A stretch of DNA of 52,577 nt from Clostridia bacterium. Its GTDB lineage: Bacteria > Bacillota > Clostridia > Christensenellales > Aristaeellaceae. The notes beneath the pieces were generated by a model, which was not told where the DNA came from, made no database searches, and saw nothing but the letters and a program-made list of their open reading frames with translations. The position numbers and the translations under genes were made by a program. Every line of letters begins with the position of its first letter. Positions within the stretch are counted from its first letter, which is position 1. The stretch spans positions 17,778 through 70,354 of the forward strand of contig JAUNQH010000001.1 of the NCBI GenBank assembly GCA_030536295.1, read 5' to 3'. Positions 1,533 to 10,442 of the stretch are shown here, piece by piece.

Positions 1533-2006
1533 ATGGATAAAAAACTTTTCAGGGAAAAGAGCGTGGCGCGCATCGCGTCGCCGGAACAGCTGGATAAATA
1601 TATCAAGGGCGGCCGCCGGGGGTATCTGATCGCGCTGCTTGCGATCGTCGCGGTGCTGGGCGGCATGCTTGTGTGGGCGCTGGTCGGCAGCATTGAGACA
1701 TCGATCGAGACCGGATGCACCATACGCGCCGGCAAGGTGATCTGCTGTGTGCCGGAGGATACCGCCAAACGCCTGACGGCCAGCGCGGTGATCCGCGTTG
1801 AAGGACGGGAGGTCCCCGTTACGGGCACGTCTCCGGTGCGCCCGGCTGAAGAGAGCGAGGCCGACAAGGTCATGCGCGACGCGCTGGATCTGAACGAGAA
1901 TGAATGGTGCTTCGACGCGTATTCCGAAACGGACCTTCCTGACGGAAATTACCGCTGCACGCTGGTGCTTGAGTATATCAGCCCCATCCGGCTGATATTC
2001 AACTGA
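1533..2006 (+). CDS. Short NHLM-system membrane-fusion (HlyD-like) protein
   Basis: This is a 157-residue protein with one membrane segment (residues about 30-53, YLIALLAIVAVLGGMLVWAL). Its N-terminus (KLFREKSVARIASPEQLDKYIK) resembles the start of the HlyD-type membrane-fusion proteins of NHLM bacteriocin secretion systems. Those proteins are usually around 400 residues with coiled-coil and lipoyl domains. Here only the cytoplasmic leader, the TM helix and a small extracellular beta-rich domain remain. The ATG follows a GAACGAGGC ribosome site. The C39 ABC exporter starts 12 bases downstream, so it is co-transcribed and probably forms part of that exporter. It could be a lineage-specific minimal form rather than a decayed gene, since the reading frame is intact and codon use is normal. 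The family call rests on the N-terminal motif and on position. Confidence 0.65.
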   Translation: MDKKLFREKSVARIASPEQLDKYIKGGRRGYLIALLAIVAVLGGMLVWALVGSIETSIETGCTIRAGKVICCVPEDTAKRLTASAVIRVEGREVPVTGTSPVRPAEESEADKVMRDALDLNENEWCFDAYSETDLPDGNYRCTLVLEYISPIRLIFN

Positions 2007-2017
2007 CGGAGAAAACT

Positions 2018-4171
2018 ATGAGCAAGACGATGAATCAGGTGTGCAGGGTGCCGGTCATCATGCAGATGGAAGCGCTGGAATGCGGTGCCGCGTGCGTGAG
2101 CATGGTCCTTGCGTACTACGGAAAGTGGATCCCGCTGGAACAGGCGCGCCGGGACTGCGGCGTGAGCCGTGACGGCAGCCGCGCCAGCAATATGGTGAAG
2201 GCCGCGCGCACATATGGGATGGAAACCAAGGCATATAAACTTGAACCGGATCAGTTGCGCGAATTCGGCACGATGCCGTGTATCATTCACTGGGAGTTCA
2301 ATCATTTTGTTGTGGTGCGCGGCTTCCGCGGCAACTATGTGTATCTGAATGATCCGGCGCGAGGTGAGATACGGCTGACGGCCGAAGAATTCGATCAGGG
2401 GTTTACCGGTGTCGCCATTTTCATGGAGCCGACAGCCGGCTTTGAAAAAAGCGGAGAAAAAAAGACAGTGCGAAGCTATACGCGGCGCAGATGCTCCGGC
2501 TTCGGCGGCATTGTGCTTCTGGTGATCCTGGCGGCGCTGGCGGAGAAGCTCCTCAGCGTGTTTGAACCCGGCTTCAGCAATGTTTTTTATGACCGGCTGC
2601 TGACCGGTAAGGATCCGGACTGGCTTGTGCCGTTTACGGTCTTTTTCGGCGTACTGTGCGTGCTGAAGATACTGGCGGAATGGATCCGCACGGAAGGTGA
2701 GAGACGCGGCGAGGCAAAGCTGGATGCCGTTGGTTCCACCTCTTTCATGTGGAAGGTGCTCCGTCTGCCGATGGAATTCTTCAGCCAGCGGATGGGCGGC
2801 GATATTCTGTCGCGCGAGAACTCCAGCAGCAGTATCGCGAATACGATCATTCATACACTGGCGCCGATCGTACTGGATATCGCCGTCAGCATCGTATGGC
2901 TGCTGGCGATGCTGCGCTATAATGTGACGCTGACGATGATCGGCCTCATCGCGATGGCGCTTCAGGCCGCGGTGAACAATTTCATCGCGAAAAAACAGAC
3001 GAATATCGTGCGCGCGTCCATGAAAAACCGCGGTCTGCTTGCCGGCTATACCGTGAACGGCATCAGTATGATCGAGACGATCAAGGCATCCGGCAGTGAA
3101 AGCGGCTACTTTGAAAAATGGGCCGGCTATCAGGCCGGCGCGAATGCCGCGGAGATCGAATACGGGCATTACGGCCGCAACGCGGCGCTGCTCAACGCGA
3201 TGGTGAACGTGCTGTGCGATGCCGTGATCACGGGGATCAGCCTGTGGCTGATCATGCGCGGTGAATACACCATCGGTATGATGAACGCCTTTGCCGGTTA
3301 TCTGAGCGGCTTCACCGCGCCTGTGACGGGCGCGCTGGACGCGATCCGCAGCCTGCAGATGATGCGGACCGAGATGGACCGCGTGGAGGACGTGATGGAT
3401 TATCCGGAAGATCCGGTGTTTTCAGCTGTCGGATCGGAAACGGATGACAGACTGTCCGGTCTGATCGAGATGAAGAACGTGACCTTCGGGTACAGCCGCC
3501 TGGATAAGCCGCTGATCGAAGATTTCAACCTGACGGTGAAGCCCGGCGGAACCGTGGCGCTCGTGGGCGGCAGCGGCAGCGGGAAGAGCACGCTGGGCAA
3601 ACTGATCTGCGGGCTGTATATGCCGTGGAGCGGTGAGATCCTGTTTGACGGAAAGCGCGTGACGGAGATCGACCGGATGGTGTTCAACGCCAGCCTGAAC
3701 ATGGTGGACCAGGAGATCACGATCTTCAACGATACGATACGGGACAATATCCGCATGTGGGATGAGACCATCAGTGATGAAACACTGGTCCGCGCCGCGA
3801 AGGACGCGCAGATACATGATGATATCCTGCAGCGTGAGGACGGTTACGGCAGCGTGCTTGCCGAGGGCGGACGCGATCTGTCCGGCGGACAGCGGCAGCG
3901 GCTTGAGATCGCCCGTGTGCTGGCCAGGGACCCGGGCATCTGCATTCTGGATGAAGCAACCAGCGCGCTGGACGCGGAAACGGAGGCCAATGTCATTGCC
4001 GCGATCCGGAAGCGCGGGATCACGTGCGTGATCGTGGCTCACCGGCTCAGCACCATCAGGGATTGCGATGAGATCATCGTGCTGGAAGACGGCAAGGTCG
4101 CGGAACGCGGAACACATGCCGAACTGATCGGCAGACACGGCGCGTACGCGAAGCTTGTGACCAGTGATTGA
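2018..4171 (+). CDS. NHLM peptide export ABC transporter with C39 peptidase domain
   Basis: This 717-residue protein cuts the leader off a peptide substrate and exports the core across the membrane. Residues 1-130 are a C39 cysteine peptidase: catalytic Cys22 in LECGAAC, His96 in NHFVVV and Asp112 in LNDPARG. A six-helix exporter domain follows (about 165-450). The ATPase domain has Walker A GGSGSGKST (517-525), signature LSGGQRQR (621) and Walker B ICILDEATSALD (about 640-651). All catalytic residues are present. Length and order match the NHLM-type peptidase/permease/ATPase used for RiPPs with long leaders. The partner exporter follows after 10 bases. No precursor peptide or modification enzyme of a known RiPP class lies nearby, so its substrate is probably encoded elsewhere or is of an unrecognised kind. 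Confidence 0.92.
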   Translation: MSKTMNQVCRVPVIMQMEALECGAACVSMVLAYYGKWIPLEQARRDCGVSRDGSRASNMVKAARTYGMETKAYKLEPDQLREFGTMPCIIHWEFNHFVVVRGFRGNYVYLNDPARGEIRLTAEEFDQGFTGVAIFMEPTAGFEKSGEKKTVRSYTRRRCSGFGGIVLLVILAALAEKLLSVFEPGFSNVFYDRLLTGKDPDWLVPFTVFFGVLCVLKILAEWIRTEGERRGEAKLDAVGSTSFMWKVLRLPMEFFSQRMGGDILSRENSSSSIANTIIHTLAPIVLDIAVSIVWLLAMLRYNVTLTMIGLIAMALQAAVNNFIAKKQTNIVRASMKNRGLLAGYTVNGISMIETIKASGSESGYFEKWAGYQAGANAAEIEYGHYGRNAALLNAMVNVLCDAVITGISLWLIMRGEYTIGMMNAFAGYLSGFTAPVTGALDAIRSLQMMRTEMDRVEDVMDYPEDPVFSAVGSETDDRLSGLIEMKNVTFGYSRLDKPLIEDFNLTVKPGGTVALVGGSGSGKSTLGKLICGLYMPWSGEILFDGKRVTEIDRMVFNASLNMVDQEITIFNDTIRDNIRMWDETISDETLVRAAKDAQIHDDILQREDGYGSVLAEGGRDLSGGQRQRLEIARVLARDPGICILDEATSALDAETEANVIAAIRKRGITCVIVAHRLSTIRDCDEIIVLEDGKVAERGTHAELIGRHGAYAKLVTSD

Positions 4172-4181
4172 GGATAAGCGA

Positions 4182-6416
4182 ATGACAAACCGTTTTAAAG
4201 AACAGATCGCCGAACGGCGGCAGAATGATCTGCACGCGCTGGAGGATGCCTTCGGCGGGATCGTCAATGTGATCAACGGCGGGGGCGGAACGGCCGCGAA
4301 CGGTACGGAGCAGATCGAACGTGCCGTAGGGGAGATCCTGGCATTCTACGATGCCAGAAAGCCTGACCGGGCCGTGGATGCCGTAACGGCCGAAGAATAC
4401 CTGGAAGCCGTGTGCCGGCCGCAGGGCATCACGCGCCGTGTGATCAGGCTTGAGCACGGATGGTACCGGGACGCGGCGGGCGCGATCCTCGCGACGCGGC
4501 GCGCGGACGGGAAAGCGGTGGCGCTGCTGCCCGGCATGACCGGGTATCACTATACCGATCCGGATACGGGAAAACGCGTGCGCATGAGCCCGAAGACCGA
4601 AGCGCTTCTTGATGCTGACGCGATCTGCTTTTACAAGCCTTTTCCGCTGCAGAAGCTGACGCCGGCCGGGCTTGTCATCTTCGCGTTCAGAAACTGCGAC
4701 AAACGTGAACTGGCCATGATCCCGGTGATGATGGCCGCAGCGACCGCGATCGGTCTGCTGGTGCCGCGGCTGACAAGATTCATGTACGGCGCGCTGACAG
4801 TGAAGGAAGACATCCTGCTTCTGATCAGCACCATGATATTCTGGCTTTGCCTGAATATCGGCTCCATGCTGATCTCCACCGCGAAGGATCTGCTGAACGA
4901 GCGGCTCATCAACAGAATGCATATGCAGGTGGAAAGCGCGACGATGATGCGCGTGCTGAGCCTGCCTGTGGATTTTTTCAGGAAATACTCGAGCGGCGAC
5001 CTGAGCCAGCGCACCGGATATGTGAACACCCTGTGCGAACAGATCATCAACAGCATTCTTGATACAGGCCTGACGAGCATTTTCAGTCTGGTGTACATCA
5101 ACTCCGTTTTCCTGTACGCGCCCGCGCTGGTCGTGCCGGCGCTTGTGATCACGCTGATCACGGCGCTGTTCAATATAAATACGGGGCGCATCCAGCAGAT
5201 CGTATCCAAACACAAGATGGAAGCGGACGCGCAGGCCGCGGGTCTTGCTTACGGAATGATCGAAGGCGTACAGAAGATCCGTGTGACGGGCGCCGAGAAC
5301 CGCGCCTTCGCGAAGTGGGGCAGGATCAGAAAACAGGTGCTCCGGCTGACATATGACACGCCCGGCATCCTGCGGCGGAACACCGTCTATTCGCTGATGA
5401 TCAGCTGCGCGGGCATGATCGTGATGTATTACATGGCCGCGGCAAACCATGTGAGCGTTGAGGATTACGGCGCGTTCAACGCGGCCTACGGTATGGTCAG
5501 CAGCGCCTTCATGAGCCTGACCGGCGTGATCCGGAAGGTCGCGGAAATGCGGCCGCTGCTGGATATGGCGCGCCCGATCCTGGAAGCCATACCGGAGGTC
5601 TCCGAGAATAAGCCCGTGGTGCGGGAACTGACCGGTGCCGTTGAGATGACGGCGCTCTCCTTCCGCTACAGTGATTCCATGCCGGATGTGATCAGCAATC
5701 TGAATCTGACGATCGAACCCGGGGAGTATGTGGCGATCGTCGGTAAAACGGGATGCGGCAAGAGCACGCTGATACGGCTGCTGCTGGGCTTTGAAAAACC
5801 GCAGAAGGGCGCCGTGTACTACGACGGCAGGGATCTGTCCGCGATGGACCTGCAGAGTCTGCGGCGCATGATCGGCGTCGTGCTGCAGGACGGAAAGCTG
5901 TTTCAGGGCAGCATCTTTGAGAACATATCGCTGAATGCGCCATGGATGACACTGGATGAAGCGTGGAAAGCCGCCGAAATGGCGGGGATCGCGGATGATA
6001 TCCGGAAGATGCCGATGGGCATGCAGACACTGCTGAGCGAAGGCAACGGCGGCGTATCCGGCGGGCAGCGCCAGCGCCTGATGATCGCGCGGGCGGTCGC
6101 GCCGCGGCCGAAGGTCCTGATCTTTGACGAGGCGACGAGCGCGCTGGACAACGTGACCCAGAAGCAGGTGAGCGACGCGCTGGATACGCTTGACTGCACC
6201 CGCATCGTGGTCGCGCACCGGCTGAGCACGATCCGCCACTGCGACAGGATCATCTATATTGAAAACGGCAGGATCACCGAGGAAGGCACCTATGAGGAGC
6301 TGATCGCGAAGAACGGCAGGTTCGCTTCGATGGTCGAACGTCAGCGGCTGGATCTGGAGGAGACAGGAAACGGGACTGTTCAGACCGCGGAAGCTTCGGA
6401 GGCGGACGGGGAATGA
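4182..6416 (+). CDS. NHLM export ABC transporter, permease/ATPase without peptidase
   Basis: This is the partner subunit of the preceding exporter, 744 residues. The N-terminal region of about 170 residues has no peptidase motif and matches the extra soluble domain of the second NHLM ABC protein. Six membrane helices follow (about 175-440), then an ATPase with Walker A GKTGCGKST (521-529), signature VSGGQRQR (625) and LIFDEATSALDN. I chose the ATG at 4182 because GAGG lies 8 bases upstream. An in-frame GTG at 4164 would overlap the upstream gene and lacks a properly placed ribosome site. With the C39 protein it probably forms a heterodimer or a sequential export pair. Its stop overlaps the start of the FliB-like gene by 4 bases (ATGA), which implies translational coupling. 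Confidence 0.9.
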   Translation: MTNRFKEQIAERRQNDLHALEDAFGGIVNVINGGGGTAANGTEQIERAVGEILAFYDARKPDRAVDAVTAEEYLEAVCRPQGITRRVIRLEHGWYRDAAGAILATRRADGKAVALLPGMTGYHYTDPDTGKRVRMSPKTEALLDADAICFYKPFPLQKLTPAGLVIFAFRNCDKRELAMIPVMMAAATAIGLLVPRLTRFMYGALTVKEDILLLISTMIFWLCLNIGSMLISTAKDLLNERLINRMHMQVESATMMRVLSLPVDFFRKYSSGDLSQRTGYVNTLCEQIINSILDTGLTSIFSLVYINSVFLYAPALVVPALVITLITALFNINTGRIQQIVSKHKMEADAQAAGLAYGMIEGVQKIRVTGAENRAFAKWGRIRKQVLRLTYDTPGILRRNTVYSLMISCAGMIVMYYMAAANHVSVEDYGAFNAAYGMVSSAFMSLTGVIRKVAEMRPLLDMARPILEAIPEVSENKPVVRELTGAVEMTALSFRYSDSMPDVISNLNLTIEPGEYVAIVGKTGCGKSTLIRLLLGFEKPQKGAVYYDGRDLSAMDLQSLRRMIGVVLQDGKLFQGSIFENISLNAPWMTLDEAWKAAEMAGIADDIRKMPMGMQTLLSEGNGGVSGGQRQRLMIARAVAPRPKVLIFDEATSALDNVTQKQVSDALDTLDCTRIVVAHRLSTIRHCDRIIYIENGRITEEGTYEELIAKNGRFASMVERQRLDLEETGNGTVQTAEASEADGE

Positions 6417-7342
6417 AGTGGCTCGTACCGGATTATTATCCGCTGTTCCGGTGTAAAGCGGACAAATGCCGGCACACCTGCTGTGCCGGCTGGGAGATCG
6501 ATATCGATCCGGAAACACGCGAAAGGTACCGTGCCATGACCGGTCCCCTGGGCGCGGAACTGGCAGCGTACATTCAGGATACGGGTGAAGGTTCAGCATT
6601 TATCCTGCAGGGAAAAGAGGAACGCTGTCCCTTTCTGCGGAATGACGGTCTGTGCAGGATCATTCTTGAAAAGGGTCCGGAGGCGCTGTGCCAGATCTGT
6701 ACGGATCATCCGCGGTTCCGCAATTTCTTTTCCGACCGCGAGGAAATGGGGCTCGGTATGTGCTGCGAGGCGGCGGCGGAGCTGATCCTGACGAGAACGG
6801 AACGGATGCGCATCATGCTCACGGATGATGATGATGATGACGAGCAGCTGACGGACGAAGAGGAAGCACTGCTCGCGCTGCGGCAGCAGTTGATGGATAT
6901 CGCTTCCGACAGGACCGTGAGCCTGCGCGAACGTGAAGAACGCATCGCTGTATCGTGCGCCCTGACGGAACGGCAGTGCCGTACACCGGACGCGGACTTT
7001 ATGAAGAAACTGGATGTCCTGGACAGCGCCTGGCCCGAACGCCTGGACATGCTGGCGGGAAAACCCGCGGATACGGATCTGAAGGCCTTTGAGATCCCGC
7101 TGGAACAGGTGCTGATGAACATGCTGTACCGCCATTTGCCCGGTGCCGTGAATGACGGCGACGCGCAGGGCAGGATCGGCTTCTGCCTGATGTCGCTGAG
7201 CCTGATACGGGACCTGTTCCTGCGGGCGGAAGAGCAGACGCTGCAGACCCTTGCCGGTATCGTGCGGCAGTGGTCGGCGGAGATCGAGTATTCGGATGAA
7301 AACATTGAACGCCTGATCGGGTACGGATACGAAGATGAGTGA
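6413..7342 (+). CDS. FliB-like (YkgJ-type) cysteine-cluster protein, putative lysine N-methylase
   Basis: This 309-residue protein resembles FliB, which methylates lysines of flagellin in some bacteria. Its N-terminus carries the Cys cluster C14-x4-C19-x3-CC(23-24) followed by AGWEIDID. A second cluster, ERCPFLRNDGLCRI then ALCQICTDHPRF, follows at about residues 65-105. These cysteines are expected to bind an Fe-S cluster or another metal. A run of six Asp (about residues 138-143) is an internal acidic loop. FliB proteins are usually somewhat longer. No flagellar gene occurs in the window, while the gene is translationally coupled to a peptide exporter. Its target may therefore be an exported peptide or another protein, which is inference. 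Family assignment is good; activity is unproven. Confidence 0.8.
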   Translation: MKWLVPDYYPLFRCKADKCRHTCCAGWEIDIDPETRERYRAMTGPLGAELAAYIQDTGEGSAFILQGKEERCPFLRNDGLCRIILEKGPEALCQICTDHPRFRNFFSDREEMGLGMCCEAAAELILTRTERMRIMLTDDDDDDEQLTDEEEALLALRQQLMDIASDRTVSLREREERIAVSCALTERQCRTPDADFMKKLDVLDSAWPERLDMLAGKPADTDLKAFEIPLEQVLMNMLYRHLPGAVNDGDAQGRIGFCLMSLSLIRDLFLRAEEQTLQTLAGIVRQWSAEIEYSDENIERLIGYGYEDE

Positions 7343-7356
7343 CCGGAGGAAATGAC

Positions 7357-8226
7357 ATGATCGACGCGCACGCGCATCTGTGGCTGAAGCAGCGGGGCAT
7401 GGTCAACGGAATGCCGGTGTATGATATCGGCGGCGGGAAAAGCATGTTCGGCGACCGGGTGATGCAGATGATACCGCCGTATATGACGGACGGTGTGAAC
7501 TCCGCGGAACGCTTCCTGGCAAACATGGATCTTGCCCGTGTATCCGCAGCCGTACTGACGCAGGAGTATATCGACGGAAACCAGGATGAATACCTGAAGA
7601 CAGTGCGGAAGGAATGGCCGGACCGCTTCAGGGTGACCTGCCTGTATGAGGAAGACCGTCAGCCGGATACTGACGGCGCGGACGGCATCAAGATCTGCGG
7701 AGGCAGGCTGGCGGAACAGGATCTGACAAAACACGCGGATGTCTTTCGCCTCGCGGCGGAAAAAGATATGTTCATCGCGATCGATATGGCGGACGGGGAT
7801 ACGCAGACGGGATCCCTGCGGGAGATGGTCCGCGCGTTTCCGGATCTGCGGATCGCGATCGGTCACTTCGGTATGGTGACGCGGCCGGGATGGCAGGAGC
7901 AGATCCGGCTCGCGCGGGAAAAGAATGTATCGATCGAGAGCGGCGGTATCACGTGGCTGTACAACAGCGAGTTCTGGCCTTACCCGTCCGCGGTGCGGGC
8001 GATCCTGGAGGCGCGGGACATCTGCGGTATGGACAAGCTGATGTGGGGCTCGGATTATCCGAGAACGATGACGGCCATCACCTACGGAATGAGCAGCAGC
8101 TTCGCGGCGCGATCGGAACTGCTGACGGATGAGGAGAAGGAACTGTTTTTCCTGAAAAACGCACGGACATTCTACCGCTTCGGCCCGCAGCCGGAGATGC
8201 CCGTGATCCATCATATGGCGGAATGA
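7357..8226 (+). CDS. Amidohydrolase family (TIM-barrel metal-dependent hydrolase)
   Basis: This 289-residue cytoplasmic enzyme belongs to the amidohydrolase-2 (ACMSD-like) group. It shows the N-terminal metal motif DAHAH (His5, His7), a further metal His in IAIGHFG (His170) and the catalytic Asp in WGSDYPR (Asp233). Such enzymes hydrolyse or decarboxylate small carboxylated or amide substrates, and the substrate is not readable here. The ATG at 7357 has GGAGG 7 bases upstream. An earlier in-frame GTG at 7339 overlaps the preceding stop and lacks spacing for a ribosome site. It is the last gene of the export unit and ends just before a strong two-way hairpin. Whether it takes part in peptide processing or is a passenger is open. 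Confidence 0.85.
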   Translation: MIDAHAHLWLKQRGMVNGMPVYDIGGGKSMFGDRVMQMIPPYMTDGVNSAERFLANMDLARVSAAVLTQEYIDGNQDEYLKTVRKEWPDRFRVTCLYEEDRQPDTDGADGIKICGGRLAEQDLTKHADVFRLAAEKDMFIAIDMADGDTQTGSLREMVRAFPDLRIAIGHFGMVTRPGWQEQIRLAREKNVSIESGGITWLYNSEFWPYPSAVRAILEARDICGMDKLMWGSDYPRTMTAITYGMSSSFAARSELLTDEEKELFFLKNARTFYRFGPQPEMPVIHHMAE

Positions 8227-8227
8227 C

Positions 8228-8279
8228 GCATAAACAGCGGACCCGGTGGAAAGATCTCCGCCGGGTCCGCTGTTTATGC
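8228..8279. terminator. Bidirectional terminator, 23-bp stem
   Basis: Positions 8228-8250 pair with 8257-8279 over 23 bases with one G-T wobble and a 6-base loop. It lies between the convergent amidohydrolase (stop 8226) and alpha-galactosidase (stop 8283). A/T-rich stretches within the stem serve both strands. Confidence 0.85.
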
Positions 8280-8282
8280 CGT

Positions 8283-10442
8283 TTACACTTTTGTAAGATG
8301 AATGACGGAACTGGTGAAGTCCTGCTTCAGCTGCAGCCAGAAGCCCATATTCATGAGGACGGCTCCGGCGTATTCACGGCCGTTTTCATCGCGGTAGACT
8401 GCCTCCGGGTCAAGCCCCTGCAGCCGGACGCGGACGGGCGCCGTGTTTGGCGTGACCAGCGTTACATATGTGCACAGCAGAGCTTCGCCGCGGTCTTCCG
8501 AAACGAACTGCCAGGCCGTGTAATTGCCCTCAAACGGCGACAGCAGGCGATAATAATCTCCCTGCTGGATCAGGGAACGCACTTGCTTGACCCGCGTGAC
8601 CAGCTGCTTTGCGACCGCTATATCATCATCGCTGAGCGCGGAGAGATCCAGCTCGAAACCGAAGTTGCCGCCAACGGCCACATCGCCGCGCATCTGCATG
8701 CCGGTACTGCGCCCCGTCTGGTGGTTCGGCACGGCGCTGACGTGCGCGCTGATGGCGGACGGCGGATAGACGAAGGAGGTGCCGTACTGGATCTTCAGCC
8801 GCTCCACGGCGTCTGTATCATCACTGGTCCAGAACTGCGGCATGTAGTAAAGAATGCCGGGGTCGAACCGTCCGCCGCCGCCGGAGCAGCCTTCGAACAG
8901 GACCTGCGGGAAACGGGACGTAAGCGTATCCATCACGCGGTATACACCCAGCATATAGCGGTGCTGCGTTTCCAGCTGACGTTCAGGGATACGGCTGCCG
9001 GAAAAGGCTTCCGTCATGTTGCGGTTCATGTCCCACTTGACATATTCGATATTCGCGCCGGCCAGCACTTTGCCGACCGCGTCTATGATATAGTCCTGTA
9101 CTTCCGTGCGGCTCATATCCAGAATGAGCTGCTGACGGCATTCCGTGCGGGGCCGCCCGTCCACATGCAGGCACCAGTCCGGATGCGCGCGGTAGAGGTC
9201 GCTGTCAGGGGAGACCATTTCCGGTTCAAACCACAGGCCGAACTTCAGACCGATCGCGTTGATCTTTTCCGCAAGACCTTTGATGCCGCATGACAGCTTG
9301 TTCCGGTTCTCGACCCAGTCGCCGAGGGAGTTGTCATCCCAGTCGCGCTTACCGAACCAGCCGTCATCCAGCACGAAAAGCTCCGTACCGATCTGCTTCG
9401 CGCGTTCCGCGATCGCCAGCAGCTTTTCTTCCGTGAAGCCGAAATAGGTCGCCTCCCAGTTGTTGATCAGCACGGGACGGGGCCTGTCGCGCCAGTAACC
9501 GCGGCACAGGCGTTTGCGGTACAGCCGGTGGAAGGTTCGGGACATGCCGTTCAGACCTCTGTCGGACCAGACCAGCACGGCTTCGGGCGTGCAGAAAGTC
9601 TCACCCGGTTCAAGACGCCAGGTGAAGGTCGCGGGATCCATGCCCATGGACAGTCTGGTATTGCCGGCGTTGTCCACACAGGACAGCGCCAGAAAACTGC
9701 CGCTGTAAACGAAATTCATGGCCCATACTTCACCGGAAGATTCATCCGTGTTTTTACGGCACAGGGCGATGAATGGATTTTCCTCGTGCCCGGAAGCGCC
9801 GCGCTGGGAGAAGATGCGGTATTCGCCTTCGCCCTGCGGAACGCGGATCACACTGCGCTCGCGCGCCCACGCGCCCTTCAGGTGGATCAGGTCATATCCG
9901 CTGCCGTAAAGCGGCACGGAGGCGGCCATCGCGCCGCGCACCGTCATGGGTCCGGCACTGCCGTTTTCAAGCACCAGATGCCGGGTGACGGCACCGCTTT
10001 CATTGAAGACGGTGTACACGGACGTCACTTTCAGCCCGGTCAGCGGATCCTGCAGCAGGATCTCCAGACTGTCCGCCTCGTCATCCGCTTCGGTATACAC
10101 CATCGGCAGCCCCGGCAGCGGCTTTTTGCCGGGATAAGCGGTATGCGATACATACTTCAGCGTAACGACATCGTTGCCCTGCGCGCAGATCGCGTCCACC
10201 GCGGGCGTGCCGTACCATCCGGTACCGCGCACGGGCAGTTCGTGAGGACGGCGGTAATCGCCCCGGTCAAAGGAAGCCACGGCATAGTAGCGGTCCATCT
10301 CCGGCATGACGGAACCGTCCGGGATCCGCTTGCCCCAATACAGGTTTTCCAGCTCGCCTTCGTCGTCCGCGTGCATCACGTAGGACACATCGCCGCCGGA
10401 CAGATAGAAGGCGCGCCGCTTCTCATCAAAAAAGAATGACAT
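8283..10442 (-). CDS. Alpha-galactosidase, GH36
   Basis: This 719-residue cytoplasmic enzyme removes terminal alpha-1,6-galactose from melibiose, raffinose-family sugars and galactomannan fragments. GH36 landmarks are complete: FVLDDGWFGKRDWDD, the nucleophile Asp471 in VKWDMNRN, EGCSGGGGRFD, and the acid/base Asp in WTSDDTDA (538-545). The N-terminal beta-sandwich and C-terminal domain are present and the length is normal for bacterial GH36. I chose the ATG at 10442 because GGAGG lies 7 bases upstream. The frame stays open for 37 more codons with no support. No signal peptide is present, so it acts on imported sugar. It is monocistronic, transcribed divergently from the ABC exporter pair, and has its own promoter. 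No dedicated importer is adjacent; the sugar importers 6 kb away could serve it. Confidence 0.93.
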   Translation of the reverse strand: MSFFFDEKRRAFYLSGGDVSYVMHADDEGELENLYWGKRIPDGSVMPEMDRYYAVASFDRGDYRRPHELPVRGTGWYGTPAVDAICAQGNDVVTLKYVSHTAYPGKKPLPGLPMVYTEADDEADSLEILLQDPLTGLKVTSVYTVFNESGAVTRHLVLENGSAGPMTVRGAMAASVPLYGSGYDLIHLKGAWARERSVIRVPQGEGEYRIFSQRGASGHEENPFIALCRKNTDESSGEVWAMNFVYSGSFLALSCVDNAGNTRLSMGMDPATFTWRLEPGETFCTPEAVLVWSDRGLNGMSRTFHRLYRKRLCRGYWRDRPRPVLINNWEATYFGFTEEKLLAIAERAKQIGTELFVLDDGWFGKRDWDDNSLGDWVENRNKLSCGIKGLAEKINAIGLKFGLWFEPEMVSPDSDLYRAHPDWCLHVDGRPRTECRQQLILDMSRTEVQDYIIDAVGKVLAGANIEYVKWDMNRNMTEAFSGSRIPERQLETQHRYMLGVYRVMDTLTSRFPQVLFEGCSGGGGRFDPGILYYMPQFWTSDDTDAVERLKIQYGTSFVYPPSAISAHVSAVPNHQTGRSTGMQMRGDVAVGGNFGFELDLSALSDDDIAVAKQLVTRVKQVRSLIQQGDYYRLLSPFEGNYTAWQFVSEDRGEALLCTYVTLVTPNTAPVRVRLQGLDPEAVYRDENGREYAGAVLMNMGFWLQLKQDFTSSVIHLTKV

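Follow-up and report, generated by a model that had tools for sequence, protein, structure and literature searches.

We analysed a stretch of 52,577 nucleotides (the window; G000:C73:17778-70354) from a Clostridia bacterium (genome G000), the assembly of which comprises 2.2 Mb on 84 contigs and is 67% complete. Five tightly packed genes near the start of the window encode a minimal membrane-fusion protein (MFP), an ABC transporter with a C39 peptidase domain (ABC1), a partner ABC transporter (ABC2), a FliB-like protein, and an amidohydrolase (Table 1). We consider it probable (about 0.72) that the first three form an NHLM-type exporter which secretes unmodified, wall-binding mini-proteins with double-glycine leaders, encoded by scattered genes, and that the FliB-like protein and the amidohydrolase are passengers. 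A first-pass annotation of the window had proposed instead that these last two proteins could act in the maturation of a peptide natural product that has yet to be described. Comparisons were made with the sister species (G022) and within a set of 150 genomes, G000 included; genes were called by a custom script, not by a published caller.

ABC1 scored 873.7 bits against TIGR03796 (cut-off, 853.3) and is a member of this known family. For ABC2, the best match was TIGR03797, which was near full length at 683 bits, 26 bits short of the cut-off of 709.4. The MFP matched TIGR03794 at only 22.2 bits (cut-off, 156.2), with its residues 13-69 aligned to the first 58 of the 421 model positions. It consists of cytosolic helices, one membrane helix (about residues 28-51), and a small beta domain outside; its AlphaFold2 model had a predicted local distance difference test (pLDDT) score of 82, and a structure search found no PDB fold match at an E-value of 0.001. 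In the C39 domain of ABC1, which matched PF03412, Gln16, Cys22, His96, and Asp112 were invariant across 11 aligned homologues, and we take them to be the catalytic residues. Motifs that are presumably Walker A, Walker B, and the signature could be read from both ABC sequences. The exporter is intact in these respects, as the first-pass annotation had stated. Furthermore, ABC1 matched an ABC-type bacteriocin transporter (PDB 4ry2) over its full length (E 6.7e-96). In PADLOC, each ABC protein was hit by two models, and these hits were taken as general ATPase matches. Taken together, these results suggest that the genes at 1533-6416 code for a peptidase-containing ABC exporter of a divergent NHLM type, a cassette that departs from the known family by its shortened fusion protein. 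At an E-value of 1e-6, PF03412 found exactly one C39 match in G000, which was ABC1 of the window, and one in G022. In a tree of 49 ABC1 rows, the two species grouped together with full support and had no close kin; their branch was long (1.7 changes per column), despite the low ratio of nonsynonymous to synonymous substitution rates (dN/dS) within the pair.

Subsequently, candidate cargo was sought in the own genome with a leader pattern, followed by gene calls and homology. A leader-bearing peptide had been predicted to exist and, indeed, at least eight genes with double-glycine leaders were found; it had also been noted that no precursor lies beside the exporter, and in the window no gene with such a leader was observed. 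The absence of lanthionine synthetase, radical SAM, and YcaO genes from the window is given as stated in the first-pass annotation. A genome-wide leader scan by pattern and homology, as had been proposed, thus yielded leader genes, but these encode mainly folded-domain mini-proteins and form no cluster for a ribosomally synthesised and post-translationally modified peptide (RiPP). The eight genes are scattered among ordinary-looking genes, and four mini-protein pairs between G000 and G022 had a dN/dS of about 0.06-0.28. Neither NHLP-type (TIGR03793) nor Nif11-type (TIGR03798) precursors were matched in this 67% complete assembly. Modification enzymes beside the exporter or the cargo genes were not recognised by eye in the gene lists, family models having been run over a part of the neighbours.

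The leaders were examined with a profile of 61 collected proteins, a set that is biased by the choice of loci and in which a few members may not be cargo. Their consensus is L at -12, N/T/S at -11, E at -8, L/M at -7, E at -6, E/Q at -5, V at -4, and A/S/T at -3, followed by Gly-Gly. Leu at -12, for which the search expression had not selected, occurred in 47 of the 61 leaders and Glu or Asp at -8 in 52. Class II double-glycine leaders have hydrophobic residues at -12, -7, and -4, an acidic residue at -8, and Gly-Gly, and the collected leaders agree with this consensus. After removal of one spurious row (L188), Pfam (E 0.001) assigned LysM to 31 and SH3_3 to 11 of the remaining 60 cores. The leaders and cores had median lengths of 19 and 63 residues and median charges of -4 and +5, respectively. 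Since 58 of the 60 proteins had no 17-residue stretch above a hydropathy of 1.6 within the first 45 residues, no Sec-type signal was evident. One relative, G054, has the exporter (MFP from 9602 of L070) immediately preceded by two leader-SH3b genes of the same orientation (8787-9059 and 9159-9464). When one LysM cargo protein was searched in plasmids, three partial domain matches were obtained, and a LysM alignment searched against viral contigs found nothing.

The distribution of cargo and exporter was then compared over the 150 genomes. A genome was counted as leader-LysM positive when a match started at profile position 6 or lower in an open reading frame of at most 150 residues; the counts are among the matches listed. 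Such proteins occurred in 21 of the 150 genomes: 19 of the 47 with a fusion protein and 2 of the 103 without one (p 1.7e-9). The same tendency was observed inside the genus (16/32 versus 1/13, p 0.008) and outside it (3/15 versus 1/90, p 0.009), and G013 alone had at least ten leader-LysM matches. Full-length leader-SH3b proteins, again among the matches listed, were found in G000, G022, G054, G060, G098, and G048, five of which have the fusion protein; G000, G022, and G054 had supplied the SH3b profile.

Based on these observations, the following route would account for the system. The C39 domain of ABC1 would bind the double-glycine leader and cut after Gly-Gly, the core would pass through the pore of ABC1 and ABC2 to the outside, and cores with LysM or SH3b domains would attach to peptidoglycan there, with no modification enzyme needed. 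The FliB-like protein and the amidohydrolase would have joined later behind ABC2 as lineage-specific passengers. Cleavage, export, wall binding, and the lack of modification are predicted here from the sequences of the exporter and its residues, from the leaders and core domains, from the co-occurrence, and from the adjacency in one relative.

Several observations weigh against this route. No cargo gene is linked to the exporter in the own genome, and because the assembly is 67% complete, another C39 transporter could be missing from it. The SH3b genes of G054 are separated from the exporter by an inverted repeat that resembles a terminator (about 9477-9520), so these genes and the exporter may not be co-transcribed. 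Proteins of G000 and G022 supplied the leader-LysM profile (A2), so that these two genomes match by construction; with both excluded, the counts were 17/45 versus 2/103. The genomes are related, and the p-values thus overstate their independence. Moreover, 28 of the 47 fusion-protein-positive genomes, including the near-complete G001, G002, G023, and G035, had no leader-LysM protein among the matches listed. Conversely, G028 (57% complete) and G048 (75% complete) had leader-LysM proteins and no C39 match. A genome "without" the exporter is one without a fusion-protein match, and two of these, G031 and G040, have a C39 match. Raw counts of the leader motif, 2-15 per exporter genome and 3-7 in genomes without it, gave no separation; since these counts are noisy, with many chance and antisense matches, homology and gene calls were relied on.

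We also examined whether the FliB-like protein and the amidohydrolase belong to the exporter. The order of the five genes and the 4-base overlap between the ABC2 and FliB genes were confirmed as first described. All five genes had a dN/dS of 0.07-0.13 against G022; hence, they are more than chance reading frames and, as judged from these ratios, are under purifying selection. The hydrolase and GH36 genes converge, and a long hairpin between them closes the unit and is likely a terminator for both. The single promoter that had been placed at 1473-1501 was absent from the list of a promoter scan, which gave 2 promoter-like sites versus 2.9 expected from shuffled sequence. The block from the MFP to the GH36 gene is one stretch of 87% identity between G000 and G022, whereas three genes directly upstream of it in G000, including a MATE gene, are not at that place in G022.

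Fusion-protein matches were found in 47 of the 150 genomes, the own genome included, and 38 exporter neighbourhoods (L042-L079) were obtained from 35 of the 46 others. By tblastn, the FliB-like and hydrolase genes lay beside the exporter in only one of the 38 loci, that of the sister species; neither gene was found there in the other 37, the result that the first-pass annotation itself had named as speaking against its proposal. With the window, 39 loci were available, three of which (L047, L072, and L077) were cut before the gene after ABC2. Among the 36 readable loci, this gene was FliB in the window and in G022 and another gene in the remaining 34. A scan of named genomes that used ABC motifs as patterns gave at least 80 loci, most of them more distant ABC genes; in the 22 that were gene-called, several of which were cut or distant, neither FliB nor the hydrolase was in reach of the exporter.

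The FliB-like protein scored 204.9 bits against NF038110 (cut-off, 85) and contains Cys14-X4-Cys19-X3-Cys23-Cys24. In Salmonella FliB, this CX4CX3CC motif holds a [4Fe-4S] cluster (PMC8598068), and the window protein may accordingly be a lysine methyltransferase. Flagellin was rejected as its substrate: in contrast to the Salmonella enzyme, no flagellin match (PF00669) was obtained in 32 genomes, 23 of them FliB-positive and the own one incomplete, while 4 of 14 control genomes matched. The AlphaFold2 model was confident (pLDDT 89), and the structure search gave no PDB fold match at an E-value of 0.001. FliB homologues matched in 35 of the 150 genomes, where they are scattered among genomic sites, as read from their surroundings: the commonest neighbour in 19 fetched loci, an aldo-keto-reductase-like gene (named by reading), occurred in five, and a twentieth fetched locus (L207) contained no gene of this cluster.

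The amidohydrolase scored 115.6 bits against PF04909 (cut-off, 26.4). Its only PDB sequence match was 2ffi, a putative 2-pyrone-4,6-dicarboxylic acid hydrolase, at a weak E-value of 1.6e-4. Matches occurred in 26 of the 150 genomes; outside the species pair, sixteen were full length at 60-75% identity and located at other sites. The orthologues stand near dehydrogenase-like genes, within two genes in 15 of 18 fetched loci. In one locus tested with family models, the dehydrogenase-like gene was a weak glucose-dehydrogenase match under the cut-off, and its neighbour was a clear zinc-dependent dehydrogenase, nearest to sugar and inositol enzymes under their cut-offs; the best NCBIfam match of one of these genes, also under the cut-off, was an inosose dehydrogenase model. 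From family and gene context, a sugar-acid lactonase or a similar hydrolase is the likeliest role. In G002, the exporter (1.16 Mb) and the hydrolase (3.35 Mb) are far apart on one contig. The hydrolase is also present in G044, a genome in which neither the fusion protein nor a C39 peptidase was matched.

These findings bear directly on the proposal that the FliB-like protein and the amidohydrolase mature a peptide natural product exported by the cassette. Tight packing with the 4-base overlap, the order kept in G022, the purifying selection on both genes, and a methyltransferase motif for which no flagellin was found would fit it. However, the neighbourhood comparison led us to reject it, in view of the other genes after ABC2, the independent sites of the hydrolase orthologues, and the low constancy of the FliB neighbours; even the 4-base overlap recurs in four of the 34 loci with a called gene of another kind. 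We regard maturation by these proteins as very improbable, and both are probably passengers unrelated to the exporter. A variant seems to us a long shot: in the two-species lineage, FliB would have been recruited into the operon of the exporter and would methylate lysines of the double-glycine LysM and SH3b mini-proteins while these are still in the cytosol, ahead of their cleavage and export. If it held, methyl-lysine wall-binding cores made by an iron-sulphur methyltransferase would be a new kind of secreted protein.

Alternatively, the third of the genome that is missing from the assembly might contain a conventional RiPP cluster served by this exporter. Relatives offer a model for this, because Nif11-type precursors and radical SAM genes stand beside the same exporter in G117, G085, and G041 (L046, L059, and L063; the radical SAM family model was run on L046), and TIGR03798 matched in 21 of the 47 fusion-protein-positive versus 5 of the 103 other genomes, 13 of the 26 being over the family cut-off. 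In contrast, TIGR03798 was matched in neither G000 nor G022, of which the missing parts need not coincide, and eight other leader genes are already present in the own genome; we therefore judge this explanation unlikely, and Nif11-type and mini-protein cargo could share one exporter. It is somewhat more conceivable, if still doubtful, that the mini-proteins are bacteriocins or other anti-competitor proteins and not a coat for the own wall. Their leader is of the canonical bacteriocin type, Bacteriocin_IIc matched 2 of the 60 leader proteins, and a leader-LysM gene of G017 is followed by two leader peptides with glycine-zipper-like cores (L372). However, the four pairs of cores are constrained between the sister species, and no constant immunity-like neighbour was seen by inspection of the gene lists. 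Secretion of unmodified wall-binding mini-proteins thus remains the explanation that we prefer.

Among known systems, PCAT1 is said to work as a homodimer, whereas ABC1 of the window has ABC2 as its partner. Full-length similarity relates ABC1 to the PCAT-type transporter (PDB 4ry2) and to other C39 peptidase-containing ABC proteins. The NHLM/NHLP cassette (TIGR03794-03796-03797), as presented by Haft, Basu, and Mitchell (2010; PMC2887384), likewise combines a C39-ABC, a second ABC, and a fusion-protein-like gene. In that account, leader conservation reflects the transporter, and leaders and cores are mixed and matched; the same leader on unrelated cores, as found here, fits this idea. The present cassette differs in its fusion protein of 157 residues against a model of 421 positions, in the lack of an NHLP or Nif11 precursor match in the assembly, and in candidate cores that are folded domains with no modification enzyme recognised by eye beside them. 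The nearest functional precedent, by analogy, is PteB of Synechococcus elongatus with EbfG1-4, small double-glycine proteins needed for biofilm, a non-bacteriocin role (PMC4997328). Both systems pair small double-glycine proteins with a C39 transporter, export being predicted from genes in our case; ebfG1-4 are cotranscribed, whereas the cargo genes here are scattered, and the term "LysM" occurs nowhere in that text. In listings of open-licence literature, which are not proof of absence, we found no paper on mini-proteins in which a double-glycine leader precedes a LysM or SH3b core. With its likely cargo, the cassette would be a variant of the NHLM-type exporter, and its short fusion protein sets it apart from the known family.

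Other leader-bearing and exporter-linked genes were observed in relatives. In G088, four tandem double-glycine leader genes encode Cys-pair zinc-ribbon-like cores (L067:280-1321). The two peptides of G017 (L372:5443-5646 and 5699-5896), directly downstream of the leader-LysM gene, resemble a two-peptide bacteriocin. Behind the exporter of G117 (L046:15549-19610), six Nif11-leader-like proteins with Cys-rich zinc-ribbon-like cores are followed by a radical SAM/SPASM gene. Genes resembling anti-sigma kinases, STAS proteins, and PP2C phosphatases (names by reading) recur beside the exporter in L046, L057, L064, L066, L067, L073, L078, and others. A further conserved peptide of 61-68 residues (the c9 family), with an LFDYQKF-like start and a later leader-like ..DEMEWVxAAG, occurs beside a small sigma-factor gene and mostly close to an exporter of this type; it extends from Clostridia as far as a metagenome-assembled genome of Treponema, and the sigma family model was run on L072. 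In G050, this peptide directly precedes two leader-LysM genes away from the exporter (L370:1861-2046 and 2260-2757). It could link export to transcription. As cargo, it was not seen beside the exporter of the window, the search being confined to that neighbourhood, whereas it adjoins exporters of other lineages together with the sigma-factor gene.

Table 1 Features of the window (window numbering) and of candidate cargo and peptide loci (contig or locus numbering).
Feature	Location	Strand	Remarks
MFP (minimal membrane-fusion protein, 157 aa)	1533..2006	+	Weak N-terminal TIGR03794 match; relatives have homologues next to this ABC pair
ABC1 (C39 peptidase, permease, ATPase)	2018..4171	+	TIGR03796 over cut-off
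ABC2 (partner permease-ATPase)	4182..6416	+	Best start ATG 4182; TIGR03797 best match
FliB-like protein	6413..7342	+	NF038110 over cut-off; 4-base overlap with ABC2
Amidohydrolase-2 family protein	7357..8226	+	Best start ATG 7357; PF04909
Long hairpin between converging hydrolase and GH36 genes	8225..8283		-48.9 kcal/mol, z -11.9; GH36 by Pfam; likely terminator
MATE gene and two further upstream genes	window:20-1399 and upstream		In G000, not at the same place in G022
Leader-SH3b genes (G000)	C83:14469-14741; C7:24875-25150	-; +
Leader-LysM genes (G000)	C74:1771-2028; C75:19525-19761; C6:11080-11334	+; +; -
Leader-zinc-ribbon-like genes (G000)	C77:2387-2620; C75:12755-12958	+; -
Leader-short cationic gene, 49 aa (G000)	C21:3541-3690 (L357)	+	Cationic, hydrophobic core; antimicrobial-like peptide
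LFDYQKF peptide loci	L062:9200-9400; L071:14742-14936; L072:9879-10085; L074:10182-10373; L076:6633-6836	-; +; -; +; -
LFDYQKF peptide loci, continued	L078:5014-5199; L320:525-728; L391:14801-15001; L439:1464-1658	+; -; +; +

Where exporters of this kind occur, hidden antibiotic-like peptides are commonly suspected. The present evidence points to another job, in which tiny wall-binding domains (LysM and SH3b) would be shipped by the bacteriocin route and not by the general secretory route. The mini-proteins would give a cargo to an exporter that looks orphan, and the two genes behind it serve as a warning that genes adjoining an exporter of this type can be passengers.

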